Below are positions 459 through 60,426 of a DNA stretch of 64,000 nucleotides, in pieces. The DNA is from Ulota crispa (Eukaryota > Streptophyta > Bryopsida > Orthotrichales > Orthotrichaceae). A program made the position numbers and the translations under genes. The notes below the pieces were generated by a model. The model was not told where the DNA came from and did no database searches. It saw nothing but the letters and a program-made list of their open reading frames with translations. The stretch lies in contig OY987245.1 in assembly GCA_963920765.1 (NCBI GenBank), forward strand, positions 13,966,727 through 14,030,726, written 5' to 3'. The stretch's first letter is position 1. The number at the start of each line of letters is the position of its first letter.

Positions 459-1347
459 TTAACCCCTAAATGCCTCAAGGTACTATTTTAGTTGAGGAAG
501 GCATTTTGGAAGTTCTTGAATTGGAATTGTGAGATCATTATTAAACATTGACAAAAAAGAACTGTATCACTAGGATCTTGAACTTCAAGGCTTTCAAATG
601 GTGTTGCCAAAAAAATTCTTAAAAAACAACACAGATGTCAAGATATTTGTGACTGAATGTGGATGAGTACAAACTTTCTAGCTTTTTTGGAGCTGCCCAA
701 AACTTGTTATGCAAATTAGCAACTTTTGAGTACAAAATTGGAAAACCACCACTTATGATGATTTAGTACTTGTTGTTACTTCAAAACTAATTACTCTCTT
801 CCAAAGCCATAATTGCAATTTTACAAATGAGCTTGCAATACAACGGTCAAAGAATTACCACCCAATTAAAAGAAAATGTTTAGCTCCAATTATTAATAAA
901 AAATCATTTTGGATGAAAGAATTTTGAATGGTGATTGAATTTTAATTTGTATACAAAAAGCATTACAAGTGAAATCAGTGCAAAGACACATTTAGATTTT
1001 GCTAGATGATGAAATTTTAGTAAAAGGGGCCTCATTGTACAAAACCCAAGAGAAATCTTCACTTTATTCTCAACTTGTTGCCCATCTTTCCAATGTGACA
1101 ACTTGTCATAGGCTCTTTAGTGACACTATTCATCACACTTTTTGATGCGCAAGAGACATGCTTGCAATTTCTCTTTCACCAAATACAATTGAAATGTGGT
1201 ATGGAAGAAATTCAAAGTGGATATTGAGGCTAACTTCAAAATGCAATTTCTCCAAAAAAAAATTTAAAAATCAAAATATTTGCATGCAACTAGGTTTCAA
1301 ATTTTCTTGGACACCCAAATTGGATGTCTCAGGCATTGAGGGGTTAA
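459..1347. mobile_element. TTAA-bounded non-autonomous element, family G copy 1
   Basis: The element starts TTAACCCCTAAATGCCTCAA and ends with the imperfect complement GGCATTGAGGGGTTAA, so it has short terminal inverted repeats and TTAA at both edges. It has no convincing coding capacity. Its interior matches the flanks of the CACTA insertion at 36,661-39,485, so it is an uninterrupted paralogue of the copy at 36,353-40,355. TTAA with CCC-starting ends is the piggyBac pattern; that superfamily assignment is inference. Confidence 0.75.
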
Positions 1348-1448
1348 AAACCTAACATTTCAATCTTTCAAAGCGAAAGTTCCAATATTGACACCCCTCA
1401 ACCTAAATTTATCAATATTATGAATCAAGTCCATCCACTTTCTAAGAA

Positions 1449-1600
1449 CCTCCTCCCATGTTGAGCCGATGGCGGTGGAACTAATTTTACTTGACCAATA
1501 ATTGGTCAGATCAGGTTCCAGTTTTCTGGAACCCCGATCTGACCAATTATCGGCCAGATAAAAATAGCTACACCCCCACCGGCTGAGCATGGAAGGAGGC
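1449..1600. mobile_element. Hairpin MITE, about 150 bp
   Basis: The left arm (CCTCCTCCCATG) and right arm (CATGGAAGGAGG) pair almost along the whole length and meet at a loop of a few bases near 1,525, where CCAG and CTGG face each other. A second copy of the family, split by another insertion, lies at 28,175-29,264. No coding capacity. Confidence 0.7.
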
Positions 1601-2306
1601 CCTAATTGTCTATACAAAATGCTCGGTTGACCTTACCAAAGGGACATGCCCAAGACACAAGGCAAAAACTCATGTACTCTTAGAAACATGGGGTTCATTG
1701 TCCATCCTGCCCTTGGTCTAAAATGCATCATACAAAATTACAAACCGGCAAATCTTTCATTTTCGTACCCCCTTATAAGTAGCCCCCAGTCTAAATAACT
1801 TGTCAGTGTTGGAGCAGGATAAGTACAAGCATTCCATAAACGTGAGTGTGGTACCAAGCACTTATGCTATCCCATCCTCTGTAATAAATTTGTGGACAAA
1901 AACGTTATCTTCTTTTTTGAATTGTCCAAGCACTGATTCCTGAGTTTTGCAACAACGATGACAAGTAAATTCTCTAAAAACTGAATGAAAACAGGATTTT
2001 CCCCTCAAGTTTTGAGAATTCAAAAAGTAATATAGAAGTTGAGAACATAAGAGCCTAAAGAGCTAGTAGTCAAGTGCCAGCTGGCACAGATTCTTCACAT
2101 TAGACCTAATTGTAGCTGAACGAACTGGCAAAATCGCCGGTTGAAATTTGAATTTATCTGATAAAAATTGGTCAGATTTTCAGAAACATTAAATTATAAG
2201 AAAAATATATAGGCAATATACAATGCATGCATTCAAAAAACTAGTTAAAAATGAGATTGGTCAGATTCTTACCAATGGAACTCAAAAATCTCCTCATATA
2301 TTGGTA
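1601..2306. other. Intergenic DNA, nothing recognised
   Basis: No gene or repeat structure supported. Short pieces around 2,160 and 2,250 (TTGGTCAGATT) resemble the arm of the neighbouring hairpin family and may be debris of it. Confidence 0.4.
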
Positions 2307-3219
2307 TTAACCCTTTAAGAGTCACGCACATTTTCTCAAAATCCACTAGAAACATGGGTGGTGAACTTAGATGTTTAGTTGGATCAAATATGGACCCAAC
2401 ATAAATAACTCAAGCATATGAATGGGGAGAACACCTTATTTATTGTGAACTATCAAGATTTCAACCAAATCTACGACTAAAGGTGAAATATTATAATGAT
2501 TGAGTGACTCATAGGTAAAAACTCTCTAGTTTGTCATGCTTGTGTGGTTTTGGATGTTAGTGCTTCATGTTGCACTTGGGAATGGTTTTATATTTTAGAA
2601 GGTATGGTTTCCCACTTTTCCAATAAGACTAATTTCACAAAAAAGTGGATAGAAATAGTAATCATAAGTGGTGTAGCTAAGTGGATAAAATGGGTCAAAA
2701 ATGCCACTTTATCTGCCACACTAAGATCATCCTAAAATGAATTTGAAAAATGCTATGGAAAATCCAATTGGTGAAAGCAATCAAGAATTGACCTAAAGTA
2801 TAGGATGACAAAGTTTAGAGATGAAATGATAGCACCATTTCAATGAATCTTCAAACATTGCAATTATACTACTACAATAGAGAGAAACAATATAAGTGTA
2901 CATCTTAAGAAATTTGATTTTTTTTAGGATTGTGCAATTAAAATGTGGCATTCTTTTCTAATACTTGATATATTGTATTGTTGCTTTGATCCATCTTTAA
3001 CAAAAAATGTACACGTATTTTGAGACCATACCATATAAAACACCATTATTTGTCAACTCACATACCTAATTCTAGTATTGTTTCTTAGTTGAGTACAAAA
3101 TTCTTGTGATCACATTTTTGATTCAACAACAAATTTCAGATTGCTAATTCATTTTATTTTGTAAGTCATAAACCACTCTTTTCAACCAAAATATTGTTGT
3201 GTGGTCGTTAAAGGGTTAA
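2307..3219. mobile_element. TTAA-bounded element, family I
   Basis: The left end TTAACCCTTTAAGAGTCACG and the right end (reverse complement TTAACCCTTTAACGACCAC) form a terminal inverted repeat bounded by TTAA. It is 913 bp and non-coding. The ends differ from the CCCCTAAA families but follow the same TTAA-CCC rule. Confidence 0.6.
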
Positions 3220-3412: not shown

Positions 3413-4079
3413 TTAACCCCTAAAGGCTCAAGCCCTTTTTTTGTGTGAAAGTCATAGAAAACTGTTGCTTTTGGGGAAATGAGTAGAAAGGTAGGAATTT
3501 TTTTTTTTGGAAATCCAACCGTAGGATCTTGCCTTGGACTATGGGATGTACTTGTGGGAAAATATCAGCTCATTTCAAATGGCAAAGACTGAGATATCAA
3601 CATTTGAAGTGAAGAAAAAAAGTTATTTTCCTGTTGCCTGAAATTTTTAGAAGCCTTTAACCACTCTTATAGCAAAAAAATTGCTCTACACAAAGTTCAG
3701 ATCTATTTTATTTGAGTAGAAGACCAAGTTAGGTATGTGTGGGAGAATTTTCAAATGAATTGGAGGTGTGTAACATACTTCAAAAAATATTTCAATATCA
3801 GAAGGTCTTGAAATTTGCAAGTACACTAGGCAAAATTAAAGGATTCATGTAAAATTTGGGATTTTGAATTACAATAATATAAAAAATGAAAGGCAAGGGC
3901 TCTTATCCCACTAAAACTAGTGAAAAAAATAAACTAGAAAAAAACCCACAAACGACTTAAAAAATGAAAGTTCCAAATTTTATAAGGGATAAAAGGAATA
4001 GCGGTTTGGGAGTCTCGTATGTACCTGCAAACTAAAACTTCTCACTCATTAATCAAAATGGAATGATTCAAAGCTTCCC

Positions 4080-4136
<57 letters not shown>

Positions 4137-4411
4137 CATACATATAAAGAACCAATTTCAGATTTTTATATTAACAAACATACAATTTTTAAAAAGTTTT
4201 TGGGCTGCCTGGTCTTCCCCATTTAAAAAAAAATCCATGCATAACTTTTTCAATAAATGTTGGAATGAAAAAAAATTAGATGCCCACTTAGATTTTTGAA
4301 TTCCCCACTTTCAATAAAAGTCTCAAAAAATCACACAAAATAATGTAACCATAGGTACATGGCCGAAATTCCATTTATCCCCCATGGGGACAATGATCCT
4401 TTACAAGTTAA
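3413..4411 (+). mobile_element. TTAA-bounded element, family B
   Basis: It starts TTAACCCCTAAAGGCTCAAG and ends with a degraded GGACAATGATCCTTTA..AGTTAA. The interior follows the family B order seen in eight further copies in this window: a segment about a TAGGATCTTGCCT motif, then AGAAGACCAAGTTAGGTA, then ATGCATAACTT near the right end. It contains a TA microsatellite at about 4,084-4,132. Length 999 bp against about 930-940 for other copies; the excess is largely the microsatellite. Non-coding. Confidence 0.8.
4084..4132. repeat. (TA)n microsatellite
   Basis: An uninterrupted run of alternating T and A of roughly 48 bases inside a family B element. Confidence 0.95.
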
Positions 4412-17866: not shown

Positions 17867-18228
17867 TGAAACCCCTAAAGGTTTGTTGTCCCTCTAGGAG
17901 ACAAATGGGAATTTGGGCATGTACTTACAACAAAATTACTTTGTGTGATTTCTTGAAACTTTTATGGAAGATGGGGAATTCAAAGATTTGGATAGGCATC
18001 AAATTTTTTTCTTCATTCTGACATTTATTGAAGAAGTTATGCATGAATTTCTAGAAAATGGGCATGGGCGGGTAGCCCAAAAACGTCTTTAAAGATTGCA
18101 TTTAAAAAAATTTGAATTTCCCAACTTCCATAAAGGTTTCAAGAAATCACACAAAGTAGTTTAGTTGTAAGTACATGCACAAATTCCCATTTGTCCTTTG
18201 AGGGTCCACATAGGCCTTTAGGGGTTAA
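17867..18228. mobile_element. Palindromic derivative of TTAA family B
   Basis: Both halves are the right end of family B, facing outward: ACCCCTAAAGG..TGTCCC at the left and its complement ending GGGGTTAA at the right. The shared inner landmark CACACAAAGTAG occurs in each orientation. The arms are about 150 bp and the left third of family B is missing, so this is a hairpin element made from one end of the family. Confidence 0.7.
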
Positions 18229-19798: not shown

Positions 19799-20712
19799 TT
19801 AACCTCTAAAGGACCAAGCAATGTATTCACCAAAAACTCTCCAAAATTGCCATTTTTAGGGCATCAACCAAATTTGAAAATAAAAACATTTTTATGCATG
19901 TGTGACTATAGGATCTTATAGAAGAATAGTTTAATAAGATGTGGAAAAAATTTCAGAGTTTTCCTTGGCGTGGATTGGAAGTTAGAATGGTTTGAACATT
20001 CAAAAATGTCTTGTGAAAAATTGAGTAGCTACCCTTCAAAAGGTGAAATTCCTAAGGGAAAAAGGTCATGCGGGTGGTGCTTCTCTAAAGTCCTTATTCC
20101 ACTTAAGTAAAGTACATGTCAAAAAAGTTTCAAATCATTTGGAATTGTATAACATATGGAAAAAAATTAGTAAGTAAAAAGAAGTAGAAAATGATTCAAA
20201 ACACAAAATTGTTAAGAATTTAATTATGGAAATGAAAAACGCCAACCCCAATGGTCATAATGTTGTAACAAACAATCTACACCCTTTGGTACTTTTCCAA
20301 AATAATGAAAACTAAGTAAAATAAAGGACTTCAAAGTTTATTTCAGAGTAGAGAATTTATAACTGCCTGCAACCTAAAAATCCTCATAACTTTCATCTTG
20401 TAGATCAAAATGGAATGATTCAAAGCTTCCTACATCCACATAAATCTCCTAAACCAATCATTATTTTTTAAATTGAAAAAAGCAATTTTTAAAACCTGCC
20501 CGGGCTACTTGTCAAGTGAAAAAAACAACATATTAGGCCATAACTTTTTACTTATAACTTCAAATGTCATGAAATTTAGTGCATATGAAAGATAAACCTT
20601 GTCCCCACATTCTGTTAAAATTTTAGCCTAAAATATGAAAAGCTCCAATCACAAGTACCTGCTCAAAATAGCTATGTTGCTAAAATAGGGGATCTGGTTC
20701 TTTCGGGGTTAA
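19799..20712 (+). mobile_element. TTAA-bounded element, diverged family B
   Basis: It starts TTAACCTCTAAAGGACCAAG and ends TTCTTTCGGGGTTAA. Family B landmarks are present in order, including AAGGACTTCAAAGTTTATTT and ATGATTCAAAGCTTCCTAC. It is more diverged than the other B copies. Non-coding. Confidence 0.65.
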
Positions 20713-20761: not shown

Positions 20762-21164
20762 TTAACCCCTAAACCTCCATGAGGACGTTTTTTGTCCTCT
20801 GGCCTTGAAAAAGCATTTTGTATAACAAAAAAAAGTTTTTTTTCATTTGTTTTTTTTTTCCAAAGTGACTGTAAACACACAATCCATTATAGAAGGCAAA
20901 TAACAATCTTATCAAATATACTCATATTTTTAGGTAATTCAACTTGTGAGAAAATTCAAATCCATGGTGTTAGGTCCCAAGCTGCCCTTATTGCAATTTT
21001 CATGAAGTCGACATGCACTATTAACTTTTGAAACTTTTAGAAGCAACACTATTGGTGCGTATCAATCAAAACAATGTTGAAGCTTCAATATAGACACTGT
21101 TGAAACAATGTTAAATCTATAGTATGGGCAGGCCATGGCCACCCACCAGACATTTAAGGGTTAA
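20762..21164 (+). mobile_element. TTAA-bounded element, family C copy 2
   Basis: It starts TTAACCCCTAAACCTCCATG and ends CATTTAAGGGTTAA. It is 403 bp and non-coding. The terminal TTAA is shared with the next element. Confidence 0.7.
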
Positions 21165-21616
21165 CACCTAAACGCCCAAGCCATTTTCACCAAAAAATTT
21201 GGTTTTTGGAAACCTTCAACTTTGGTGCTTCAAATTGCTATTACATGGAAAACAATGACCAACCTAGACAATGAAGGCAGCCACAACAAGGATTTAGGCC
21301 ATGCTTGAGATTTTGCCAGCAAATTTCCCGCTACCACAAAGCCCATGCAAGGAATCTTGTAAAGGGTATTGATGCGTTGCAACATGTAAAACACTCCTTG
21401 CCACCTCACCTTCAATGGCGGTCCATCCAATCTTGGCTCTTGAGGCACTTGTATAACAGTTGGCTTGCCTTACCATTTATCCACTTGCATGGACCACTTG
21501 ATTGCCTTGATAATTGTAGTTTATATCAAGGCCAAAAAGTTAAATCTAGTGCCTCAAAGGGGGCTTGTGAAATCATGTGAGGCCACTTCAAGGCCTCTTG
21601 GGCATTTAAGGATTAA
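21161..21616 (+). mobile_element. TTAA-bounded element, family D copy 1
   Basis: It starts TTAACACCTAAACGCCCAAG and ends CTTGGGCATTTAAGGATTAA, a 456-bp element with inverted ends. It shares TTAA at each edge with its neighbours. Open frames across the middle on both strands look like chance overlaps and have no family resemblance. Confidence 0.65.
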
Positions 21617-22470: not shown

Positions 22471-23087
22471 TTAACCATGGAAGATGGGAAATTATAACTT
22501 TTGATCAAATAACATGTGATGACAAAATCTCATTTTTTGTAGGAGTTGTTGTTTGTTGATGTCTACAAAATTCCAAAGACCTCTATTTCACTCCAATTTA
22601 TGTGAGCAATGAGATTAAAAATGAATACATACACTTGCAAATTATTGGAGGCCGCGCTTTATTGAATGTTAAATTTGAGGCTTTGAATTGTTGTTGTACA
22701 CAAAATAGGGACTGGCACAAATAGTGAGAGTTGCCATGACAAAAGTTTAGAACATGCTTGAACCCATGTCAACAACGCTAGATCATGGGCGGTGAGCAGT
22801 GAGCAATGAGCGGTGAGCAATAAAAGAGACTTCTTAGAGTGTAGGAGGAGAAATAAAATTTTCCTTAATTTGAGATTAGATGTTTTGAAACAACAAAAAA
22901 TTCCCTAAAACAACACGATTTTTCTCTAAAGTGCAATAATCATTTGAAAGAGGGGAGGATGTGAATGAAATAAATCAATGATATTCATTAGAGCCAATGA
23001 ATGAAAATTAATATGGATAAAAAGTGGCGGTCTAAGGTGGATGAAAAAATCCGTGATGGTTGTTTAGCATATTGAAATCAATGGACA

Positions 23088-24026
23088 TTAACCCCTAAAG
23101 GACCATTGTCCCTTTGGGGGACAAATGGGATTTCGGGCATGTACCTATGGCTAGACTACTTTGTGTGATTTTTTGAAACTTTTATTGAAGATGGGGAATT
23201 GAAAGATCTATGTGGGCATCTAATTTTTCCTTTATTCCAACATTTATTGAAGAAGTTATGCATGAATTTATGAAAATCAAGGGAGGTCGGGCAACCAAAA
23301 ACTTTTTTAAAAATAATGTTTTTTTAAAATAAAAATCTGAAATTCATTCTTTAGACAAATACATATGTGAGGAGCTTTTGATCATTCAATTTTGATTTTT
23401 GAGTGAAAAGTTTTAGTTTATGGGCATGCACGGGATTTCCATACCTCCATTCCTTTTGCCTTTGGTGCATTATTTTTTTGAGCTCTTTGTGAATTTGATT
23501 TTTGACTTCTTTTTTTCCCAAGTTTTAGTAGACTAAGATTCCTTGGTTTTCACCATTTGGATCAAAAGAATTCACATGTCTCAATTTTACATAAATCCTC
23601 CAATTTGGCCTAGTGTATATGCAAATTTCATGTCCTTACGGCATTGCAAGATTTTACAAAGTATGATCCACACCTCCAATTCATTTGGAAAATCTCCCAC
23701 ACTTACCTAACTTGGTCTTCTACATGGAAAAAATAAACCTCAACTTTGCGTAGAGCAATTTTGATTTAGGGGCAATTAAAGGCTTCTGGAATTTTTGGGC
23801 AGCAGGAAAAAAAACTTCTTTTCACTTCATATGTCAATATCTCACTCCTCTACATCTTGAATGAGATGATTTTTTTTTCCACAAGTACCTCCCATAGTCT
23901 AAGACAAGATCTTACGGTTGGATTTCCAAAAATAATTGTTTTTCCTACCTTTCTATTCATTCCCCCCAAAAGTGGCAGTTTTCAATAACTTTTGCTAAAA
24001 AAAGGGCTTGGCCCTTTAGGGGTTAA
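23088..24026 (-). mobile_element. TTAA-bounded element, family B (in left arm)
   Basis: This 939-bp copy starts TTAACCCCTAAAGGACCATT and ends GGCCCTTTAGGGGTTAA, reversed relative to the copy at 3,413. It is mirrored at 25,456-26,394, so it inserted before the inverted duplication formed. Non-coding. Confidence 0.85.
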
Positions 24027-24529
24027 GCAAATTATATCCATAAAAGACCTACATTTTTATAGCCATGGGCAATAATTGGTGCAATGATTTTGTAGATCAT
24101 GTATAGTACATTCAAGCATCTTACTTGATTATACATAAGTTTATTTATTTATTTGTTTATTTATTTATTTATTTCTAAAGATTCAATAGCCTAGTCCTGC
24201 CTAAATACGACATCCATGTTCCTCTAAAAGTAGAAAATTTTATTGAGATAAATTCTAATATTCCAAATAGCATATTATTTAGCATACGTAATACTTGCTC
24301 CCATATTGGAGATTTGAAATGACTATTAGAAAGTCAAATTTAAATGTCGTCAACAACGCATTTTCTAGAGAAAATTGAGGGTATGCTTGAGGGTGCAAAG
24401 GACTGGCCAAATCAGGTTCTTGCTTTGGACATTTGGAACTTGAATTCCTGAAGTCCAGTACGATGTTCAAATGTTACCAGAAGAAAAATATCAACATCTA
24501 CTAGGAGTTAAGAAAGTGAGGGATACGGC

Positions 24530-24729
24530 NNNNNNNNNNNNNNNNNNNNNNNNNNNNNNNNNNNNNNNNNNNNNNNNNNNNNNNNNNNNNNNNNNNNNNN
24601 NNNNNNNNNNNNNNNNNNNNNNNNNNNNNNNNNNNNNNNNNNNNNNNNNNNNNNNNNNNNNNNNNNNNNNNNNNNNNNNNNNNNNNNNNNNNNNNNNNNN
24701 NNNNNNNNNNNNNNNNNNNNNNNNNNNNN
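24530..24729. other. Assembly gap, 200 N
   Basis: Exactly 200 N, a typical placeholder length. ATACGGC occurs on both sides (24,523-24,529 and 24,730-24,736) but only once at the mirror position (GCCGTAT, 24,953-24,959). The true gap is therefore probably a 7-base overlap of two contigs rather than missing sequence. Confidence 0.9.
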
Positions 24730-24808
24730 ATACGGCTCTCAAACGCACTGGAAAAGGGCAATTTGGATTCTAATTGCCCCTCAATGGATGCACACTAAGG
24801 AAGAGAAA

Positions 24809-24880: not shown

Positions 24881-26704
24881 TTTCTCCTCCTTAGTGTGCA
24901 TCCATTGAGGGGCAATTAGAATCCAAATTGCCCTTTTCCAGTGCGTTTGAGAGCCGTATCCCTCACTTTCTTAACTCCTAGTAGATGTTGATATTTTTCT
25001 TCTGGTAACATTTGAACATCGTACTGGACTTCAGGAATTCAAGTTCCAAATGTCCAAAGCAAGAACCTGATTTGGCCAGTCCTTTGCACCCTCAAGCATA
25101 CCCTCAATTTTCTCTAGAAAATGCGTTGTTGACGACATTTAAATTTGACTTTCTAATAGTCATTTCAAATCTCCAATATGGGAGCAAGTATTACGTATGC
25201 TAAATAATATGCTATTTGGAATATTAGAATTTATCTCAATAAAATTTTCTACTTTTAGAGGAACATGGATGTCGTATTTAGGCAGGACTAGGCTATTGAA
25301 TCTTTAGAAATAAATAAATAAATAAACAAATAAATAAATAAACTTATGTATAATCAAGTAAGATGCTTGAATGTACTATACATGATCTACAAAATCATTG
25401 CACCAATTATTGCCCATGGCTATAAAAATGTAGGTCTTTTATGGATATAATTTGCTTAACCCCTAAAGGGCCAAGCCCTTTTTTTAGCAAAAGTTATTGA
25501 AAACTGCCACTTTTGGGGGGAATGAATAGAAAGGTAGGAAAAACAATTATTTTTGGAAATCCAACCGTAAGATCTTGTCTTAGACTATGGGAGGTACTTG
25601 TGGAAAAAAAAATCATCTCATTCAAGATGTAGAGGAGTGAGATATTGACATATGAAGTGAAAAGAAGTTTTTTTTCCTGCTGCCCAAAAATTCCAGAAGC
25701 CTTTAATTGCCCCTAAATCAAAATTGCTCTACGCAAAGTTGAGGTTTATTTTTTCCATGTAGAAGACCAAGTTAGGTAAGTGTGGGAGATTTTCCAAATG
25801 AATTGGAGGTGTGGATCATACTTTGTAAAATCTTGCAATGCCGTAAGGACATGAAATTTGCATATACACTAGGCCAAATTGGAGGATTTATGTAAAATTG
25901 AGACATGTGAATTCTTTTGATCCAAATGGTGAAAACCAAGGAATCTTAGTCTACTAAAACTTGGGAAAAAAAGAAGTCAAAAATCAAATTCACAAAGAGC
26001 TCAAAAAAATAATGCACCAAAGGCAAAAGGAATGGAGGTATGGAAATCCCGTGCATGCCCATAAACTAAAACTTTTCACTCAAAAATCAAAATTGAATGA
26101 TCAAAAGCTCCTCACATATGTATTTGTCTAAAGAATGAATTTCAGATTTTTATTTTAAAAAAACATTATTTTTAAAAAAGTTTTTGGTTGCCCGACCTCC
26201 CTTGATTTTCATAAATTCATGCATAACTTCTTCAATAAATGTTGGAATAAAGGAAAAATTAGATGCCCACATAGATCTTTCAATTCCCCATCTTCAATAA
26301 AAGTTTCAAAAAATCACACAAAGTAGTCTAGCCATAGGTACATGCCCGAAATCCCATTTGTCCCCCAAAGGGACAATGGTCCTTTAGGGGTTAATGTCCA
26401 TTGATTTCAATATGCTAAACAACCATCACGGATTTTTTCATCCACCTTAGACCGCCACTTTTTATCCATATTAATTTTCATTCATTGGCTCTAATGAATA
26501 TCATTGATTTATTTCATTCACATCCTCCCCTCTTTCAAATGATTATTGCACTTTAGAGAAAAATCGTGTTGTTTTAGGGAATTTTTTGTTGTTTCAAAAC
26601 ATCTAATCTCAAATTAAGGAAAATTTTATTTCTCCTCCTACACTCTAAGAAGTCTCTTTTATTGCTCACCGCTCATTGCTCACTGCTCACCGCTCACGAT
26701 CTAG
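24881..26704 (-). repeat. Right arm of giant palindrome
   Basis: Reverse complement of the left arm without net insertion or deletion outside the gap. It ends with GCTCACCGCTCACGATCTAG only six bases before the plastid insertion starts. Confidence 0.9.
25456..26394 (+). mobile_element. TTAA-bounded element, family B (in right arm)
   Basis: Mirror copy of 23,088-24,026 with identical length, 939 bp. It starts TTAACCCCTAAAGGGCCAAG and ends GGTCCTTTAGGGGTTAA. Confidence 0.85.
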
Positions 26705-26709
26705 TATCG

Positions 26710-28174: not shown

Positions 28175-29264
28175 GGGCCTCCTTCCATGTGAGGGGTCAT
28201 CAATGAAGCTAAGTTAAAGCCCACTGATAATCGGTCAGATGGGTGTTCCAAAATCTGGAACCCCATCTGACCAATTATTGGTGGGCTTAACCCCTAAATG
28301 ACCATTGTCCCTTTGGGGGACAGGTTGAACTTTGGGCATGTACCTATGGCTAAACTACTTTTTGTGATTTTCTGAAACTTTTATTAAAAGTGGGGAATTC
28401 AAAGATCTATGTGGGCATCTAATTTTCTCTTCATTCCAACATTTGCTAAAGAAGTTATGCATGAATTTATTAAAATTAGGGGAGGACTGCCCATTTGGGC
28501 AGCCCATAAACTTCTTTAAAAATTACATTTTTTAATAATAAAATCTTGAAATTGGTTCTTTAAATTTTTTTATATGTGAGAAGCTTTGAATCATTCAATT
28601 TCAATCAATGACATGGAAGTTATGAGGAGTTTTTGTTTGCAAGCAGTTATGGAATGTCTACTATAAAATAAACTTTGAAGTCCTTTGTTTTATTCAATTT
28701 TCCATATTTTGGAAAAAAAATTATACCAAAAGAAGTAGATTGTTTATTACAACATTATAACTGTTGGGATTTGCATTTTTCATTTCAATAATTAAATTCT
28801 TAACAATTGAGTGTTTTGACTCATTCTCTATTTCTTTTTACTTACTATTTTTTCCCATGTGTTGTGTAGTTCCAATTGATTTGAAAATTCTCCCACATAT
28901 ACCTAACTTGATCTCCTACATGGAAAAAATAAAGCGCAATTTTGGATAGAGCAATTTTTTTGTTATAAGAGTGGTCAAAGGCTTTTGAAATTTTTTGGCA
29001 GCATGGAAAAAAACTTTTTTTTCACTTTAGATGTAAATATCTGACTCCTCACCATCTGGAATGAGCTGATTTGTTTTCCACAAGTACCTCTTCTAGTATG
29101 GGTCAAGATCCTATGGTTGAAATTCCCAAAAACAAAACACAAAACTCCTTTTTACTAAACCTCCTAAAAATGACAGTTTTTAATGATTTTCACAGAAAAA
29201 AGGGCTTGATCCTTTAGGAGTTAATTTAACTTCACCAATGACCCCCTCACATGGAAGGAGGCCT
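28175..29264. mobile_element. Hairpin MITE split by a TTAA element
   Basis: The arms GGGCCTCCTTCCATGTGAGG (28,175) and CATGGAAGGAGGCC (ending 29,264) pair, as do TCAGATGGGTGTTCC and its complement near the loop at 28,246. The right arm is interrupted by a family B element at 28,287-29,225. The family is the same as 1,449-1,600. Confidence 0.75.
28287..29225 (-). mobile_element. TTAA-bounded element, family B, nested in hairpin
   Basis: It starts TTAACCCCTAAATGACCATT and ends GATCCTTTAGGAGTTAA, 939 bp. The surrounding hairpin pairs again on both sides of it, so the insertion site and its flanking TTAA can be read directly. Confidence 0.85.
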
Positions 29265-36183: not shown

Positions 36184-36969
36184 ATACAATGGTGAACTGT
36201 AAAAGAAAGTTGAGTTGGAATGAAACATTGGACTCTACATAATCAGTTGATTTCTAAATTCTTTTTACTGCAAATTAAACATGAATACAAATTTGTGTTG
36301 TTGATAAGTAAGTACATCACTTATAATTGAAAGCTCCATAAGAAAATGAGACTTAACCCCTAAATGCCCAAGGGTGTTTTTCTTGTTTTTTGGAAGACAG
36401 TTTTGAAGTTTTTGAATTCTCTTTGTCAGGCTATTATCAAACATCATAACAAAATTGTAACCGTCGAAGTTGAAGCTTAAACTTCAAGGCTTTTAGATGG
36501 CTCTACCCAAAATTATTGCTCGGATTTTAAGATATTTGTGATTGAATGTGGATGAGTATGGATTTTTTTTGTTTTTTTTGGAGCCGCCCAAAATTTCTAA
36601 TGCAATTTGGCAACATTCGGATACAACATTGGGTAGCAAACACTTAGGATGCTTTAGAGTCACTAGTAGAAAATTCAGCACAAAATCAACAGAATTTCAA
36701 CCAAAAACTGTTGATTTTTTTTGTGAATTTGGTCAAGTTGATTTGGGTACTTTTCTGTTGATTTTTTGTTGATTATTTACAATTTTCTGTTAATTTGTTG
36801 TTGATTTCTATTACATATTTTATGTTGTTCAATTCTATTTCTTTTCATTTTTAAATTTTTTTTTCATAGAATTTGTTTTTATTTTACGAAAATGTGAACT
36901 TTTTAGGGGGATGGGCACCTGCCCAAACTCCCAGGCAGCTGCCCAAACTTTTGGGCAGTTGCCCGAACT

Positions 36970-37065
36970 CTCGGGTAGCTGCTGGTAGCGAGGTTTGAAC
37001 CCTCCACCTCTCTTCTCACACTCCACAACCTTAGCACATTCTCTAAACCACTAGAAAATTTGCAA
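36970..37065 (-). repeat. tRNA-like (SINE-head-like) sequence
   Basis: On the minus strand, a TAGTGGTTTAGAG segment is followed about 45 nt later by GAGGGTTCAAACCTCG, resembling the A and B boxes of a tRNA promoter. A complete cloverleaf is not evident. It could be a SINE head or a decayed tRNA inside the CACTA element. Confidence 0.3.
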
Positions 37066-37573
37066 ATGCACATGCATACATTAGTATCTTGATTCTATTT
37101 GTACATTAAATGTTCATGTCTTTAGTAATCCAGTAGACTTTGGAGGCTATTTCCGCCCATTAAAAGACTTTTTTCAAAAAACTTAAAACTAAGAAAAGTT
37201 GGTACATGTATTTTACTTTCACCTCCAACAACTTTTTTTGGATTTCAATCTTTTTATCAAAAGTTATAAGCTAAAATCAGAGAAGGTGTTTAGAAATTTT
37301 AAATAAAATGTTTATTTCCATCCTTTTGAGTTTGTTTATAAATTTTTTTAGAATTCACAAATCTCATAAGGATTGTTGCAGGCAAAGGTTGAATTCATTA
37401 ATAAATATTATTTAGTGCTAGTTTTTTTGTAAAAAGAACCTTATTTTGTTAAAATAGCCTCCATAGTTTGATAGCTTCAAATAACATGAAGTCGTGAAAG
37501 TTACAAAATTAAAACCTTGCAATTATAAAATCAAAATTCTATTGACTTTTGAATAGTTTTGGATATTTTGTAA

Positions 37574-37985
37574 GGGCATTAATATGTGAACCACACCCTT
37601 TGAACTACTGTACCACACCCTCGGGGTAAATTTTAGATTTCTACCATCAAAAATTTGAGTTTGAGAATTTTGAATTCAAATTTGGACTTAGAGACCATGG
37701 TATTGTCTAGGACCATAAAAAAAGTTGCAATTCAACAACACCCAATGGGGGGGGAGCTTATCTTTTTTTACAAATAAAAGTAAAATTAACAATTTTCTCC
37801 CTAACTAAACTTTTTCATTGGGTGTTGTTGAATTGCAACTTTTTTTATGGTTCTAGACAATACCATGGTCTCTAAGTCCTAATCTGAATTCAAAATTTTC
37901 AAATTTAGCTTTTGATGGTAGAAATTTAAAATTTACCTCATGGTGTGGTATAGTAATTGGAAGTGTGGTACACATATCAATTCCC
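37574..37985. mobile_element. Hairpin element nested in CACTA
   Basis: Arms of about 175-190 bp pair through CCATGGTATTGTCTAG/CTAGACAATACCATGG and CAACACCCAATG/CATTGGGTGTTG, with a central spacer of about 65 bp. Outer ends pair as GGGCATTAATATGTG and its imperfect complement. Non-coding. Confidence 0.8.
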
Positions 37986-38799
37986 ATCTTTTAAAGCTTA
38001 TAAAAATATTTTATAAGAATGTTTTTTTTTAATTCATTTGGTTAGTAATAGAAGGAAAATTACTAAAAATACCCTTTAAGTCTTTCAAAATATCAAGTTT
38101 ACGCCGAAAATATGTGAAACATAAAAAATAGTCCTTATTTTTTGTAGGAATATCAATTATACTCCTATTATTTTGGAAAATTAATAAAAAAACTCTTCTA
38201 TTTTGAAATGTTAAATATATCCTTGTGTTATTTGAAATGTAAAAATCACCTTTGGTTTCTTGTAAGAATTTGCATTAAACTATACACTTGATTATCATGT
38301 AACACAAAGATATTTTTGGTACTTTTAATCCTTAAGGGACATTTATGATTTCTTCAAAGAATTGAGGAGCATCTTTTATATTTGTTTGTAAAGAAATTTT
38401 GGTATTTAAAACAACAAAATGTTGTACTTTTTATATAAATTTTTGTTGAATTAGTGAAGTTGTGTCCAAAAGTGTCCAGATCAACAGAAGACTATTAATT
38501 TTTTTGTTATTATGGTCATGTGTTTACTTGACTTTAAAGGCTGCTAATTTTAAATCTTACCAAATTGTGAAAAGTAAAGAAAATAAAACCAGTCAATGTA
38601 CACTCAAACTTCTAAAAGATCCTTTTTTTTTGAAAACTTCTTTTATTTTTTAAAACTTCAAAAAAATTTAATGAGGTCCAAAAAGGTTTTAGAAAGATTT
38701 CAAAAACAAACCTAAACTATTGTAATAGTTTTTTTGAAAGTATTTTGATGATTTACAAAAAGATTCTTGAAGGACTCTAATTCAGTCTAAGAGATTTTA

Positions 38800-39340
38800 T
38801 TTCTATAAGTATTTTGAAGTACTTTAACAAATTTCATAAAGATTTTAAAAAGATTCTCAAAGATTCCAAAAAGGTTCTTAAAAATTCTTGGAGATTTTCA
38901 AAGATTTTTTGAATTTCAAAAAAGATTCTCAAAAGATTCCCAAAGATTCTCAAAGATTCTCAATTGTTCTCAAACATTTTCAAAGATTCCAAAATACTTG
39001 AAAAGATTTCCAAAGATTCCTAAAAGATTCTCAAAGATTCTCAAAGATTTCTAAAGATTCTTGAAGATTCCAAAGAGATTCTCAAAGATTCTCAAAGATT
39101 CTCAATTGTTCTCAAACATTCTCAAAGATTCCAAAAAAACTTGAAAAGATTCCAAAAGATTTCCAAAGATTCATGAAGATTCCTAAAAGATTCTCAAAGA
39201 TTCTAAAATCTCAAAAAGATTCTTAAATATTCTTAAAAATCCTGAAAAGATTCTCAATGATTCCCAAAAGATTCTTGAAGATTCTTAAAGATTCACAAAA
39301 AATTCCCAAAAGATCTTCAAAAGATTCCAAAATTTCTGTG
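38800..39340. repeat. Degenerate CAAAGATTCT tandem array
   Basis: Dozens of variants of TCTCAAAGATTC and CCAAAAGATTC run head to tail. Longer blocks recur, such as AAAGATTCTCAATTGTTCTC at about 38,950 and 39,095. The array is subterminal in the CACTA element. Confidence 0.85.
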
Positions 39341-40355
39341 GATTTAGATAATGGTGTCCAAATCAACAGAACGTATTTAGTTTTTTACAGAATTTTGTTA
39401 AATTAGTCAATTAGCGTGGGCAAGTGCCCAAATCAACAAGAAACTGTTGGTTTTCTGTTGTTTTGGAAGGAGTTTTCTACTAGTGTGTTTATTGTTGTTA
39501 CTTCAAAACTAATGGGCCCCCTTCCAAATCCATGATCATAGTTTCACAAATGAGCCTGCAACGCAATTGTCAAAGCGCAACTACCTAATACAAATAAAAA
39601 ATTTAACTTCAATTATCAACCAAAAATTATTATGAATGAAAGAAAATTCAATAGTCAAAGTATTCCAATTTTTATAACAAAGACATTCCAAGTGAAATTA
39701 GTGCAAAAGCACTTTTAGATCTAATTGGATGATGATTTTTCAATGTGCGGTCTTCCATTGCCCAAAAGAGGATCTTGCCTTGCTTGAATAATGGGTTTGT
39801 GGAGACCCATTAATGTTCCCCAAGTTCCCAACAAAGTTCCCAATAGTGCATGATGTACATGTAGTTTCCTAGCAAATGAGAATTGAATCCAAAGGTCTAA
39901 TGTCATATCCAATTAGAGCTAGGTGTACCAAATTTGCCCTGGATTAAACTAATTTTGACATACTAGATGGTTTGTGCTAGCTATCTCTATGACTTCTCAT
40001 AGGTGGGAATTAGGCTAAATTTAGGGGTGTTGGTTTTAGCAATTGTGGGTCCTTGATGTTGTGTCTTTCCCCATTTTCAAAATGCTGCCCCTTCTAATGA
40101 CGAGGCAGCTTTTAAGAGGTTATTGTATGGTGCTATTAATTTTGCAGAAAAGTATGCTTGGACTTGAGCTTCTAAAAAAAATTGGAATATAGTTTGCAAA
40201 AATTTTCAATTGAATGATGACAGTAACTTTAGGGTGCAGCTTCTTGAAAAAATAAAAATCCAAAAAATAAAAATCTGCACTTTCAAGAAGTTCCCAAAAT
40301 TGCCCAATGTTTTTTTAGACACCAAAATTTAGTGCCTTGGGCATTTAGGGGCTAA

Positions 40356-41159: not shown

Positions 41160-41681
41160 TTAACCCCTAAGCTCTCAGTCGATCATTTTCTAGTCGTTGC
41201 CCGAGATGAATTTTTTTTTTTTTTTTTTTTTTTTGTAATAGGAAATCAAGTCTACTTTACAACCCAACTTGATTCATCTCAATCCAAGTTAAACTCCATC
41301 AAGGAGAATGTTTCAAAGACAAACACTTCAATATTTGCTAGTGTTGTAAAATCTACTATTTTGGGAAACTAATGATGTTCTCTCTTTTGAAAAGGTTGCA
41401 TTTTTGAAGTTTACAATAGAATGTCTATTTTTAACCAATCATACCAAATCTTAAAATATATGCATAATATTTGTAATTTTGGTGAATATTAAATGATAAA
41501 TGCCTCTAAATTCATTAAATAAAAATCCAAAACTTTTTTTTGAATGTTTAGCTATGCAAATAATTACTAAACATCATGATTCTTATTTTCTCTTTTGAAG
41601 CAAACTTCATCAAAGTTACATAAGTATTATTTTATGATACATTTGTGTTTTGCCCTTACCCCTTGGGCGTTTAGGGGTTAA
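41160..41681. mobile_element. TTAA-bounded element, family H
   Basis: It starts TTAACCCCTAAGCTCTCAGT and ends CTTGGGCGTTTAGGGGTTAA, 522 bp. A T-run of about 24 bases lies at about 41,212-41,235. The interior does not match the other families. Non-coding. Confidence 0.65.
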
Positions 41682-42109: not shown

Positions 42110-43037
42110 TTAACCCCTAAAAGCCCAAGCCCTTTTTTTTGTGAAAGTCATTGAAAATTGCCACTTTAGGAAGAATGAGTAGAAAGTAGGAAATAAAGTT
42201 TGAATTGCAAATTCAATTGCAGGATTTTGCCTTAGACTAGAAAAGGTACTTGTAAGAAAAAAATCAAGTCATTCTAGATGGAGAGGAGGTAGATACTTAC
42301 ATCTGAAGTGAAAAAGAAGGTTTTTTGATGTCCAAAACATTCAAAAGCCTTTAACCACTCTTACATGAAAAAAATTACTCTACACAAAGTTGAGGTTTAT
42401 TTTTTCCATGTAGAAGACCAAATTAGGTACATGTGAGAGAATTTTCAAATCAATTATAACTATACAACACAAGGAAAAAAATAGTAAGTAAAAAGAAGTA
42501 GAGAATGAGTCAAATCACTAAATTGTTGAGAATTTAATTATTGAAATGAAAAATGCAAATCTCGACAGTTATAATGTTGTAATAAGCAATCTACTTCCTA
42601 TAGTGTAGTTTTATTTTTCAAAATATTGAAAATTGTGGAAAATAAAAGACTTCAAAGTTTATTTTAGAGTAGAGGATTTGTAATTACCCACAAACTAAAA
42701 CATCTCAAAACTTTCATCTCATTTATCAAAATTGAATGATTCAAAGCTTCCTACATACAAAAAATCTAAAGAACCAATTTCAGATTTTAATTTTAAAAAA
42801 TACCATTATTAAAGAAGTTTTTGGGCTGCCCGGATTACCCTCCCTCCTCTGGGTTACAAAAATTCTTGCATAACTTCTTCATCAAATATCAATGATGAAA
42901 ATTAGATGCCCGCTTAGGTCTTGGAATTCCCCACCTTCAATAAAAGTTTTAAAAAATCACAAGAACTAGAATAGCTATAGGTACATGCCCAAAATCCATT
43001 TGTCCCCTTGGGGGACAATTGGGCCTTTAGGGGTTAA
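42110..43037 (+). mobile_element. TTAA-bounded element, family B
   Basis: It starts TTAACCCCTAAAAGCCCAAG and ends GGGCCTTTAGGGGTTAA, 928 bp, with all family B landmarks in order. Non-coding. Confidence 0.82.
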
Positions 43038-52690: not shown

Positions 52691-52711
52691 TCCGTTATGG
52701 GGAAGGGTACC

Positions 52712-53641
52712 TTAACCCCTAAAGGACCGCACCCTTTTGCTGTGAAAATCACTAAAATTTGCCACTTCTAGGAGGTTTAGTAAAAGTAGATTATATGTTT
52801 TGTTTTTGGGAAATCCAACTGTAGGACCTTGCCCCATACTAGAAGAGGTTCTTGTGGGGAAAAAATTAGTTTATTCTAGACGAAGAGGAGTGAGTTATTT
52901 ACATCTAAAAACAAATACAAAGTTTTTTTCCATGCTGCCCAAAAATTTCAAAAGCCTTTGACTACTCTTATGACAAAAAAATTGCTCTACCCAAAGTTAC
53001 ACTTTTCTTTCCATGTAGGAGATCAAGTTAGGTATGTGTGGGAGAATTTTCAAATCAATGGGAACTATACAACACATGGGAAAAATTAGTAAGTAAAATG
53101 AAATAAAGAATGAGTCAAAACACTCAATATTTAAGAAAATATTTAGCGAAATGAAAAACGCAAATCCCAACGGTTAAAATCTTGTAATAAACAATCTACT
53201 TCCTTTTATTTAATTTGTTTTCGAGAATATTGAAAATTAAGTAAAATAAAGGACTTCAAAGTTTATTTTAGAGTAGAGAATCCACAACTGCCTGCAAACA
53301 AAAACTCCTCATAGCTTTCATCTCAATTGAGATTGAATGATTCAAAGCTTCTCATCTATAAAACAATCTAAAGAACTAATTTCAAACTCTATTTAAAAAA
53401 AATGTAATTTTAAAGAAGTTTTTGGGCTGCCCGGACAGGCAGTTCTCCCCAAATTTTGATAAATTCATGCATAACTTCTTCATCAAAAGTCGGAATGAAG
53501 AAAAAATTCAATGCCCACATAGATATTTGAATTCCCCACCTTTGGTAAAGTTTCAAAAAATCACACAAAGTAGTTTAACCATAGGTACATGCCCAAAGTC
53601 CAGCATGTCCCCTGAAGGGACAATGGTCCTTTAGGGATTAA
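52712..53641 (+). mobile_element. TTAA-bounded element, family B
   Basis: It starts TTAACCCCTAAAGGACCGCA and ends GGTCCTTTAGGGATTAA, 930 bp. The last TTAA is the first TTAA of the next element. Non-coding. Confidence 0.85.
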
Positions 53642-54283
53642 CCCCTAAATGCCCAAGGCCTTTCTAAACTTCTTGACATTTTCAAGAAAGTGAACAATCA
53701 ACCAACCTTTTCATAAATCTCATCAAGTTTTTATAAATTGTAACCATACAAATTTAAACTAGACATATTACAGATCACATGGAAAAAGAAACCACAACAA
53801 TATCACTTACATTTTGAAAGATTATAATGTTTGAACATGAGGGTGTTAAAACTGCAAAAGTGACTTGAAGTTTTCTAATCCTCATTTCACATGTCAAATC
53901 TAAAAAGTTGGTTACCAAAAAAATATGAGGTTTAAGGTCATTACATGTTTAACTTTAATCAATTTACGGCTTTCAAAATGTACCCCTATATTTTTTTAAA
54001 TGGATTTCTAATATGATTTTTTCTCCAAGCTCTAGTGTATTTGAGGCTCATTTTCAAGATCTTCCAACACTAGAAAACTCAAGATTGCAATGGAAACCCT
54101 TGTACAAAATCTTAAATAAAAAAATCATAAACATTCATTTTCAAAATCAGATTTTTGATGCTGAAAATAGACTTCAAAACAAACTTATGTTAACAAAAAT
54201 ACAATAATGATTTGATAAGATTTTATTGGTCTTCAAAATTTTCCAAACACCCAAATTGGGTGCCTTGGGCATTTAGGGGTTAA
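53638..54283 (+). mobile_element. TTAA-bounded element, family F copy 1
   Basis: It starts TTAACCCCTAAATGCCCAAG and ends CCTTGGGCATTTAGGGGTTAA, 646 bp, with perfect inverted ends of at least 20 bp. It is homologous to 58,828-59,491. Non-coding. Confidence 0.85.
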
Positions 54284-56280: not shown

Positions 56281-57428
56281 GGGAACCTAAAGGCGTGGCA
56301 AAAGCTTGGGCGGAGTGTTTTCCAGTGTGTTTTCCTACCATATCAGCCAGCTAAACTTTACACGCACTGGAAGGAAACATATCAGAAATCAAGTACTTAC
56401 AAATACAAGGCTTTGAAGATTCAGAATGGAGAATTAGAGTTTTCGATTATTGCTAAGGTTGAGGGAGCCTCAGGTATTGAAGGGTCTACAAATGCATGGT
56501 TTTCTGGAGGATTCAAGATGGTTGACAGCTTACCTTCCCAGGTTTGATCCTACATTTGGTTTTCCTTCTGCTTTTTTTGACGTCCTTGTGAAGAGATTAA
56601 ATTGCCCAATTCTCTACGACTTCTTTGCTTAACCCTTGATGGGCGAGGCTACCAGAATACATAGTATGTATGCTGCTGTATAACTGGCATTTGCTATCAA
56701 TAAAAAGTTTTAATTTGGGATCTTGATTACCTCACTAGAACTGCATTGATATATTCTCCAACTTTTTTGTTGATCTCAAATATAGTAGAGGTGTGGATCC
56801 ATTCCAAATACAAGAAAAATACCCCGTATTGTATTGGTTGCAAAGGGCTGCCTCGTCCTTTAGGGGTTAAAATTTGGATCGGTTCTCTAACTTACAAATT
56901 TTGACCCCTCGCAGCTCACTCTTACATCAAAAGCAAGCTCACTCTTACAGCAAAAGCAAAAGAATGGGAATTTGTAGCACTTGGTTGGTTGCGTAAATCC
57001 AGGTGGGGATGCTCGTTTCGTGTGCGTGTCCTCTTGTAGTCAAAACGTCCGGGTTGCACGGTTATAGACTCTTCTTTGCAACTAGATAACCCTTCCATCC
57101 GACAAGTTTATCTGCCGGTCATTTTTTTTAACCATCCTCCCTGATGCTGAATTTGTACAGCCAAAGATCTCCGGAAAGCCAGAGGCCTTTAGCATTCAGC
57201 TCCAAAACCTTACAGCTGAAACCAACTGGCCTGGTGGGCGTGCACACTACAAGGTATTGAACTAGAAACTTAACACCACTTTAGTCAAGAATTTTTACAT
57301 TCCTCTCAAATTCATATTCAAAGTTCTTCTCTCTACAGTTATTAATGATGCTGTGTGTGTGCAGTTGAAGGATTTGGATGAGAGTCATTCCCTTACTGAC
57401 TCTCTGGTCATCAGATCCTCTCTGACAG
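56281..57428 (+). pseudogene. Unrecognised gene fragment, three in-frame exons
   Basis: Exons 56,281-56,541, 57,161-57,253 and 57,365-57,428 have canonical splice sites and compatible phases (0, 0, then 1 at the end). They encode about 140 residues, including NLKAWQKLGRSVFQCVFLPY, AKLYTHWKETYQKSSTYKYK, NAWFSGGFKMVDSLPS and PKISGKPEAFSIQLQNLTAE. I do not recognise the family. The coding sequence is undamaged in this part, but I see no start, no further exon and no terminal exon. It lies inside the stretch between the two COP1-like exons, and a 232-bp TTAA element sits in its first intron. Confidence 0.5.
56639..56870. mobile_element. Small TTAA-bounded element
   Basis: It starts TTAACCCTTGATGGGCGAGG and ends GCCTCGTCCTTTAGGGGTTAA, 232 bp, with inverted ends of about 21 bp. 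It lies between two exons of the unrecognised gene fragment. Non-coding. Confidence 0.7.
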
Positions 57429-57654: not shown

Positions 57655-58205
57655 TTCAACGCGATATTCGTTAATTTGGGAAAATATCCTGATTTGGGGA
57701 CTTCTAATTTTTTCATTTTTAAGATTTTTAGGCGTTCTGAGTGAACTTTATGATGATTTCTGCAAGACCTTAAATTAGTAATGAAACATCTTACATGAAT
57801 TATAAAAGAAATCACTTCAAATCATCTAAATACTCTCACAAATGTAAAATTTAGTATCTCCAAATTAACACCATATTAGGTAAATTGGGAACAATGGAGG
57901 GACTATTTTGTACTCCACCTTAATCCCACATACAGTTTTTTGTAAGGCATAGCTATTGCTTGAAGTTGTAGTTATCAAAATTCTTGTAGGCAATGACTGA
58001 TACTTCACAATTGTACAAAAGAATGCACACCTTTTTTTTAGTAATATGCTAAAATTTACATAATAACGGAAATAGTGAAAGTTCCTGAATGTACTTTTTC
58101 CCCAATTTACCTAATATGGTGTTAATTCAAATTCAATATCTCCAAAATTTGTTTTGGGAACGTACTTTTTCCAATTAATAAATATTGTGTACAACAGAAC
58201 CCTTC
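57655..58205 (+). repeat. Dispersed repeat interrupted by a MITE
   Basis: The parts 57,655-57,863 and 58,126-58,205 align consecutively with 16,880-17,120. Landmarks are GCGATATTCGTTAATTTGGG, ATGATGATTTCTGCAAGACC, then TTTTGGGAACG and AATAAATATTGTG. Confidence 0.6.
57865..58125. mobile_element. MITE with TTAACACCATATTAGG ends
   Basis: The end TTAACACCATATTAGGTAAA and its complement are perfect inverted repeats of at least 25 bp, 261 bp apart, again bounded by TTAA. The element interrupts the dispersed repeat 57,655-58,205. Non-coding. Confidence 0.8.
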
Positions 58206-58827
58206 ATTTGACGGTTATGGGTGCTTCTATCGTAGATGATCCAAACTGGAATATGTGTGAGATATGTGTTGTATGCTGCTTTTCAACGAACACTTGTTCT
58301 GGAAAGTAGGGCAGGTTTCTGGTGACTTGCTGCATGTACAATATATATTTAATCTATATTCAATGTACTTCCAATGGCTTGCTGAATATACAATAGGGAT
58401 ATTCACAAGTGGTCCCTTTTAGGTATGTTGAATAGTCTAGGGTTTAGGGTGCTAGTAGGACTGTCATCAGCTCATTTATTTTGTTTGCCAAATTACAACT
58501 ATCAACATTCCATTAGATAATGAATGGAGGAACTAGCCCAAATTGATTTCAAAAGGCTTTGGGAAATTTTAACGCATGAGAATTGTAGTGAGGATTGTAC
58601 TGAAAAGAGACATTTGGAAACCAGAAGTGCATCTAGTTGAAGTAAAGATATTACTACCAGTTCGTTTTTTCTTTTTTTTGTGCTAACATTGGAAATTCTA
58701 TTGTTGGTTACAGATACGTACCCTTAGAGGGCACATAAATGAGAAGAACTTCGTTCGTTTGACAGCCAACAACGAGTACATTGCTTTTGGCAGTGAATCC
58801 ACTGAAGTTTCTGTGTATCATAAGTAA

Positions 58828-59491
58828 TTAACCCCTAAATGCCCAAGGCACTTTTTGAGCTTATAGGCATTTGCTCTAAACTGAACAAAAAGCCAACATT
58901 TTGAAAAGTTATATCAATTTTATAAAAATTGTAATTGTACAAATTCATACTAGATATGTTGGATATGTTAGATATCACATAGGAAAATTAAACACAAGAA
59001 TACCACTTATGGATTGAAAGATTATAATGTTTGATTAAGAAGGTGTTAAAATTGCAACAATGACTTCAAGTCTTTCAATCCTCTTTTCACATGTCAAATT
59101 TAAAATGTTGGTCACCAAAAAAATATGAGGTTAAAGGGCATAACATATATAACTCCAATCTATTTACAGCTTTCCAAAACCCCTTTTACAATTTTTTTAA
59201 ATAAATTTCTAGTGTGAATTTTTCACCAAGATCTAGTATATTTGAAGCTCATTTTCATGAGCTCTCAACACTAAAAAAGTCAAGATTGCAATGGACACCC
59301 TTGCACAAAATCTTGAATAGAAAATTCACAATCAGTAATTCTCAAAATCAGATTTTTGATGCTAAAAATAGACTTCAAATATAATAGTTCTAAGATTAAA
59401 ATTCACTAAAAATAACAGCTTAGTTAGGTTTTATTGAACCTCAAAATATTGTTGGCACCAAAATGTGGTGCCTTGGGCATTTAGGGGTTAA
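58828..59491 (+). mobile_element. TTAA-bounded element, family F copy 2
   Basis: It starts TTAACCCCTAAATGCCCAAG and ends CTTGGGCATTTAGGGGTTAA, 664 bp. It abuts the COP1-like exon on its left and shares its right TTAA with the next element. Homologous to 53,638-54,283. Confidence 0.87.
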
Positions 59492-60426
59492 CCCCTAAAT
59501 GACCACGCCCTTTTTTTTTGCCAAAATCACTAAAAACTGCCACTTCTAGGAGGTTTAGAAAAATAGGATTTTGTGTTTTGTTTTTGGGAAATCCAACCGT
59601 AGGATCTTGACCTAGATTGGATTAGGTACTTGTGTGAAAAAAATCAGCTCATTTCAAATAGAGAGGAGTGAGATATTTACATCTTAAGTGAAAAAAAAAG
59701 TTTTTTTCCATGTTGCCCAAAAATTTCAAAAGCCTTTGACCACTCTTATAACAAAAAAATTACTCCACCTAGAGATGCGCTTTATTTTTTCTATATAGGA
59801 GATCAAGTTAGGTATGTGTGGGAGAATTTTCAAATCAATTGGAACTATACAACACATGGGAAAAAATAGTAAGTAAAAAGAAATAAAGAATGAGTCAAAA
59901 CACTAAATTTTTAAGAATCAAATTATGGAAACGAAAAATGCAAATCCCAATGGTGATAATGTTGTAATAAACAATCTTGTTCCTTTAGTTCAATTTTTTT
60001 TTCAAAATATTGAAAATTGAGTAAAATAAAGGACTTCAAAGTTTATTTTATAGTAGACATTCCATAACTGCTTGCAAACAAAAACTCCTCATAACTTTCA
60101 TCTCATTGATTGAAATTGAATGATTCAAAGCTTCTCACCTATTAAAAAATCTAAAGAACCAATTTCAGATTTGAGTTTAAAAAAAAGTAATTTTTAAAGA
60201 AGTTTTTGGGTTGCCCAGACAGGCAATCCACCCCAAATTTTTTGAAATTCATGCATAACTTCTTCGTCAAATGTCAAAATGAAGAAGAAATTTGATGCCC
60301 ATGTAGATCTTTGAATTCTCCACCTTTAATAAAAGATCTAGAAAATCACACAAAGTAGTTTAACCATAGGTACATGCCCAAAGTCCAACTTGTCCCTCAA
60401 AGGGACAATGGTCCTTTGGGGGTTAA
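59488..60426 (+). mobile_element. TTAA-bounded element, family B
   Basis: It starts TTAACCCCTAAATGACCACG and ends GGTCCTTTGGGGGTTAA, 939 bp, with all family landmarks. Non-coding. Confidence 0.87.

Follow-up and report, generated by a model that had tools for sequence, protein, structure and literature searches.

Short TTAA-bounded elements of a moss genome are very probably old non-autonomous members of the piggyBac superfamily

The short non-coding elements bounded by TTAA that populate a 64,000-nt stretch of moss DNA (C4:13966727-14030726 of a 274.8-Mb assembly, hereafter called the window) are, judging by their sequence, very probably old non-autonomous members of the piggyBac superfamily, that is, internal-deletion derivatives resembling miniature inverted-repeat transposable elements (MITEs). 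The small elements sit at TTAA, and the type of about 940 bp resembles longer elements bearing a DDE_Tnp_1_7 transposase domain both in its ends and over 188-517 bp of subterminal sequence. Regarding the host, the LEAFY DNA-binding domain (PF17538) found in the genome scored 244.7 bits against chain 4bhk_A, with 104 of 106 residues identical, compared to at most 174 for the other four chains. The 4bhk entry, listed as FLORICAULA/LEAFY homolog 1, is presumably the LEAFY protein of the moss Physcomitrium; the first-pass annotation of the window had spoken of a plant genome, and this domain places it among the land plants, most likely as a moss. Ten contigs of 15.8-41.4 Mb together with C11, of at least 5.1 Mb, would be consistent with a moss of n = 11.

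The window contains 20 copies of the 12-mer end TTAACCCCTAAA, 12 of them forward and 8 reverse, whereas 30 dinucleotide shuffles gave 0.03 on average and never more than 1. In agreement with the TTAA-CCC...GGG-TTAA rule proposed at first pass, 17 such pairs were delimited, with sizes of 242-999 bp and a cumulated length of 12,610 bp (19.7% of the 64,000 nt); TTAA is unmutated at 33 of their 34 ends, and the exact 12-mer is present at 19 of them. Inclusion of the long element at 36353-40355 raises the coverage to 26.0%, close to the quarter of the window estimated initially. By contrast, the initial count of at least 20 elements was overstated: the paired TTAA elements are real, but 23088-24026 and 25456-26394 are a single insertion that was doubled, and the independent insertions are therefore 16 paired elements and the long one, together with some unpaired ends. 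At 22770-26712, a 1,760-bp inverted repeat, 100% identical, flanks 200 N (24530-24729) and 223 other bases, and is probably an assembly join that duplicated one element. The description of the interiors as several unrelated families was also somewhat overstated: the elements at 28287, 42110, 52712 and 59488 can be aligned with one another over their full length at 77-88%, and those at 3413 and 25456 at 73%. Edge support from other copies was strong for the 940-bp type, weak for the elements at 459, 19799, 41160 and 56629, and null for that at 21161. At 53638, 44 of 51 matches overran an edge and 5 were full-length matches with exact edges, the corresponding values at 58828 being 40 of 44 and 2; these overruns are attributed to a neighbouring element occupying the 60-bp flank.

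At the scale of the genome, TTAACCCCTAAA was found 30,972 times (15,477 + 15,495) and its reversed control 77 times (41 + 36). The window, with 20 motifs per 64 kb, is thus about 2.8 times richer than the genome, in which the density is 113 per Mb. If each set of 20 exact ends stood for 12,610 bp, as in the window, the 30,972 motifs would correspond to about 19.5 Mb of elements, a rough estimate that amounts to 7% of the genome. The 17-mer end TTAACCCCTAAAGGACC was found 4,072 + 4,082 times, with no occurrence of its control. Among the first 86 of the 100 listed places of this 17-mer, the part of the list covering both strands, 17 plus-minus neighbour pairs lie less than 1.5 kb apart, 13 of them spaced by 903-963 bp, and 2 neighbours occur in other orders within 1.5 kb. 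When 59488-60426 was used as a query against the genome, 40 of the 10,212 first-look candidates were scored and 41 rows were obtained, consisting of the query itself, 39 copies with 87-90% identity and a single fragment of 57 bp with 95%. A consensus of 939 bp, including both TTAA, was built from 30 loci (query included). The identity of these copies to the consensus ranges from 0.916 to 0.954 (median 0.936), with a pairwise median of 0.891, a pattern that looks like an old star-like burst; as the 30 aligned copies are the best-scoring ones, divergence across the entire family is probably greater. Both TTAA are unmutated in 21 of the 30 copies, each TTAA letter being retained in 26-30, whereas agreement over the ten flanking bases on either side falls to 8-13 copies.

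The ends of the elements contain CCCCTAAA, which includes CCCTAAA, the plant telomere unit, and which could for this reason point to telomeric repeats instead of transposon ends. However, related lineages carry CCCTTCA, CCCTTGA or CCCTTTAA at the same place, and the motif occurs once at each edge of multi-copy elements. A telomeric origin of CCCTAAA was dropped because of these lineages devoid of it, and we consider it scarcely credible.

The genome was searched for transposases with the PF13843 (DDE_Tnp_1_7) profile, 116 of 528 candidates being scored. This search gave 120 matches, all above the cut-off and the best at 1.3e-73, and none in 14 control genomes. The transposase copies are somewhat fewer than these 120 rows, because a single gene is in some cases split over two rows, and the true number of matches may exceed 120, because 116 of the 528 candidates were scored. 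In the window itself, tblastn with 94 peptide pieces from 30 transposase loci gave no match, as expected from the first-pass statement that no transposase lies there. Since piggyBac has been reported mainly from animals, such genes might be contaminants of the assembly, for example animal DNA. The matches are nevertheless spread over contigs C1 to C11, and two of the transposase loci examined contain palindromic repeats that are also present in the window, so that we give contamination next to no weight.

Four protein pieces from two of the loci, L026 and L034, match DDE_Tnp_1_7 at 5.7e-22 to 1.8e-28. One L026 piece matches the piggyBat (8.6e-8) and piggyBac (2.9e-5) chains, and another matches piggyBat at 0.0024. 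The three aspartates of the catalytic DDD triad were found, the second and third by alignment of L026 with piggyBat and the first (TIDEMM) by eye, on the basis of the known motif. Cysteine pairs were also seen by eye at the C-terminus, and the 85-residue C-terminal piece of L026 had no Pfam match. Some of the transposase-bearing elements could be delimited, and these possess terminal inverted repeats starting with CCC. The L009 element, 5,027 bp from TTAACCCCTCATCGCC to GGCAATGAAGGGTTAA, is matched end to end by that of L018 (90.5% over 5,029 columns), the left tetramer of which is TTCA. The L014 gene lies on the plus strand inside a 5,102-bp element with ends TTAACCCTTGACCGCC and TTAACCCTTCACCGCC. 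The L009/L018 and L014 elements show that piggyBac genes of this genome carry TTAACCC ends.

Two further observations were made on the transposase genes. L078 (C1:1179000-1183500), a piggyBac-like gene split into three open pieces, could be intron-bearing or domesticated; the 4.5 kb around it contain no TTAACC motif. In addition, three pairs of transposase matches lie on opposite strands, about 15-110 kb apart, with equal or near-equal scores (C7:18203169/18223004, C2:36765124/36779670 and C10:676128/785346); these are candidates for either inverted duplications or assembly duplicates.

The link between the small elements and the transposase genes was sought at 30 of the 120 matches, for which sequence was examined with flanks of mostly 1.5 kb per side. 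The right end of the 940-bp type, with an exact TTAACCCCTAAA, is present at four of these loci (L025, L026, L034 and L038), on the same side of the gene and 1.6-1.8 kb downstream of the domain. L025 and L038 were flagged by a screen of the 30 loci with the window elements, in which the homology ran to the edge of the sequence; ends near 4346 and 4278, respectively, were predicted from these alignments, and extension of each sequence by 0.6 kb then revealed exact ends at 4348 and 4275, L038 having a second TTAACCC directly outside its end. At the four loci, about 360 bp of subterminal sequence are 75-82% identical to the family consensus, and the homology to window copies covers up to 517 bp. 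L026 (C9) and L034 (C6) have in common a stretch of 715 columns downstream of the gene, at 77%, with its terminus exactly at TTAACCCCTAAAGG; over the final 366-487 bp it is 73-79% identical to the 940-bp type, and the stretch reaches 230-260 bp further in than the part common to the small elements. L026 also carries a left end, TTAACCCCTAAAGGACCGTTGTC, followed by 188 bp that match the other end of the 940-bp type at 82%. The two distinct family ends of L026 face inward and delimit an element of 8,530 bp (C9:12440860-12449389) containing a nested palindromic repeat. The 940-bp type is the only one for which both ends and subterminal sequence were recovered, 188 bp at one end (L026 only) and about 360-517 bp at the other. 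The first-pass annotation had suggested looking for a DDE_Tnp_1_7 gene between ends of this kind; such a gene was thus found with the right end at four loci and with both ends at one, and its proposal that a piggyBac-type transposase drives the elements gained support from the 120 matches, four of them with the common end.

The use of TTAA is not exclusive to piggyBac, as Kolobok and Sola3 also use it, and the TTAA duplication can formally be read as a TA duplication with an ACCCC terminus. The small elements might accordingly belong to another TTAA superfamily (Kolobok, Sola3) or to a TA superfamily (Tc1/mariner, Stowaway-like), their proximity to piggyBac genes being fortuitous. On the basis of a transposase search confined to the PF13843 profile, we consider this very unlikely, given that the same end with about 360-517 bp recurs at four piggyBac genes with identical side and similar spacing (1.6-1.8 kb), that the sequence common to L026 and L034 continues past the homology to the small elements, and that all four letters of TTAA are about equally kept.

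The target site was also addressed by comparing the joined flanks of 96 candidate pairs with the DNA examined at that stage. Twenty-three rows span the junction, some of them in palindromic or self-similar repeats, and 6 were inspected. The comparison of L054 with L004 revealed an exact empty site, CCCCC-TTAA-G, at 80% identity over 249 columns. None of the other five sites shows an extra duplication: four are one letter off (TCAA, TTAT, TTGA, TTTA) and one is gapped at the tetramer, and the L052 and L058 sites, both among these five, use the same window site. Empty sites lacking a single TTAA had been named at first pass as contrary evidence; with one exact TTAA and five single but diverged sites, the six cases inspected did not refute the reading.

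Several results nevertheless weigh against a piggyBac origin of the small elements. The matched stretch contains stops in 110 of the 120 transposase rows. The right end of the 940-bp type was not seen at 26 of the 30 loci in the flanks examined (L009, L014 and L018 have other TTAACCC ends there, and 23 loci have no end in view), flanks of this length being expected to miss ends because all four ends found lie further from the domain. The transposase-bearing copies are relatives and not the exact parent, their ends being 75-82% identical to the consensus compared to a median of 94% for the small copies, and the left end of the 940-bp type is established for the L026 copy only. For the TGCC-type families (459, 36353, 53638 and 58828), the short end motif is the sole tie to piggyBac. 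Lastly, the tetramer is diverged in five of the six inspected empty sites, and the inspection covered 6 of the 23 rows.

If the elements are piggyBac derivatives, a DDD transposase would have bound the ends of the small elements in trans, and the elements would have been cut out at TTAACCC and pasted into new TTAA sites. Internal deletion would have yielded the short elements from longer ones, and a burst may then have produced the copies, the best of which are now about 6% off the consensus. Most of the transposase genes would have decayed later.

The moss elements resemble piggyBac (PDB 6x67/6x68) and piggyBat (PDB 9c0f) in their DDE_Tnp_1_7 transposase, TTAA target and CCC-starting ends. 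They differ in their moss host, in their CCCCTAAA ends, in the 30,972 end motifs dispersed in the genome and in the size of the delimited elements, which measure 5.0, 5.1 and 8.5 kb, a nested repeat being included in the 8.5-kb one. Animal piggyBac-derived MITEs are short and non-coding, with TTAA ends and subterminal sequence common to longer relatives. The moss elements share these features, but at about 940 bp they are long for MITEs, and their host is a land plant. Like the Stowaway and Tourist MITEs of plants, they are short, non-coding and present in thousands of copies, whereas Stowaway and Tourist have a TA or TAA duplication and depend on other transposases.

The piggyBac class is known mainly from animals and is not expected to be abundant in land plants. 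The mechanism considered here is that already known for piggyBac, and what is unusual is to find its elements so abundant in a moss, and hence in a land plant. We lean, with some reserve, towards the view that piggyBac, and not the usual plant superfamilies, became a leading source of small DNA transposons in this moss lineage, several old transposase lineages having persisted and their derivatives making up perhaps 7% of the genome. In the accessible portion of a 2022 review of land-plant transposons, plant elements with terminal inverted repeats fall in six superfamilies and the word piggyBac is absent (PMC9033089), and a 2008 paper states that only five superfamilies were described in plants (PMC2528002). 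On the other hand, a survey table counts piggyBac in all groups, land plants included (PMC4438587), a fern annotation reports 1,230 piggyBac copies, 0.00% of the genome (PMC6890710), and PMC8086355, PMC10813416 and PMC10794571 name piggyBac for plants in general terms. A literature search by titles and abstract openings, which lay outside subscription papers, preprints and Repbase, found none that described piggyBac elements as abundant in a moss. With so many end motifs and its 120 transposase matches, this moss would extend the abundance recorded for piggyBac in plants. Should piggyBac indeed be a leading source of small transposons here, the lineage would also make it possible to study in nature how a transposase of animal type fares in plant chromatin. 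The elements could serve as markers for the dating of transposon bursts in mosses, and the native plant piggyBac sequences are of use given that insect piggyBac is applied to marker excision in rice.

Table 1. TTAA-bounded elements of the window (positions in the whole stretch)
Positions	Element	Strand	Observations
459..1347	TTAA-bounded element, 889 bp	.	paired ends; parts common to 36353-40355; left edge at TTAA in 3/4 matches, right in 0
2307..3219	TTAA element with CCCTTTAA ends, 913 bp	.	L075 relative, 913/913 bases, 76%
3413..4411	940-bp-type element, 999 bp, right end decayed	.	73% full-length to 25456-26394; right end by homology
17868..18228	short palindromic 940-bp-type derivative, 361 bp	.	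inverted arms; left TTAA = GAAA; left edge in 42/101 matches, right in 42/101
19799..20712	TTAA element, 914 bp	.	paired ends; left edge in 6/53 matches, right in 0
20762..21164	TTAA element, 403 bp, right TTAA common to 21161 element	.	L075 relative, 403/403 bases, 82%
21161..21616	TTAA element, 456 bp	.	paired ends only; edge support 0/7 matches
23088..24026	940-bp type	.	among best window matches to transposase-bearing elements
25456..26394	inverted copy of 23088-24026, probable assembly-join duplicate	.	100%-identical inverted repeat
28287..29224	940-bp family copy	.	28 full-length matches with exact edges
36353..40355	long element, 4,003 bp	.	left and right ends CCCCTAAATGCCCAAGG, 17 matching bases; right tetramer CTAA (mutated TTAA); about 2.8 kb not found in relative 459-1347
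41160..41681	TTAA element, 522 bp	.	paired ends; right edge in 1/2 matches
42110..43037	940-bp family copy	.	33 full-length matches
52712..53641	940-bp family copy, right TTAA common to 53638 element	.	30 full-length matches
53638..54283	650-bp family copy	.	5 full-length matches
56629..56870	short TTAA element, 242 bp	.	paired ends; right edge in 2/6 matches
58828..59491	650-bp family copy, right TTAA common to 59488 element	.	2 full-length matches
59488..60426	940-bp family copy, genome query	.	41 rows in genome comparison

Adjoining elements have a single TTAA in common at window positions 20762-21616, 52712-54283 and 58828-60426. Perfect end-to-end junctions, TTTAGGGGTTAACCCCTAAA, were counted 335 times in the genome and the control 0 times; chance would account for about 126 by a rough estimate, giving a 2.7-fold excess. 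No insertion preference at existing ends is claimed, as this excess is explicable by regional clustering or duplications.

Palindromic repeats occupy window positions 35302-36188 (about 887 bp) and 37594-37986 (about 393 bp) and recur in other loci examined, the first type being nested in the L026 transposase region and the second in that of L034. The window further contains plastid DNA in nuclear sequence at 26649-27768, with a psbC piece and tRNA-Ser(UGA); Rfam calls IsrR at 26696-26799, on the strand opposite to psbC.

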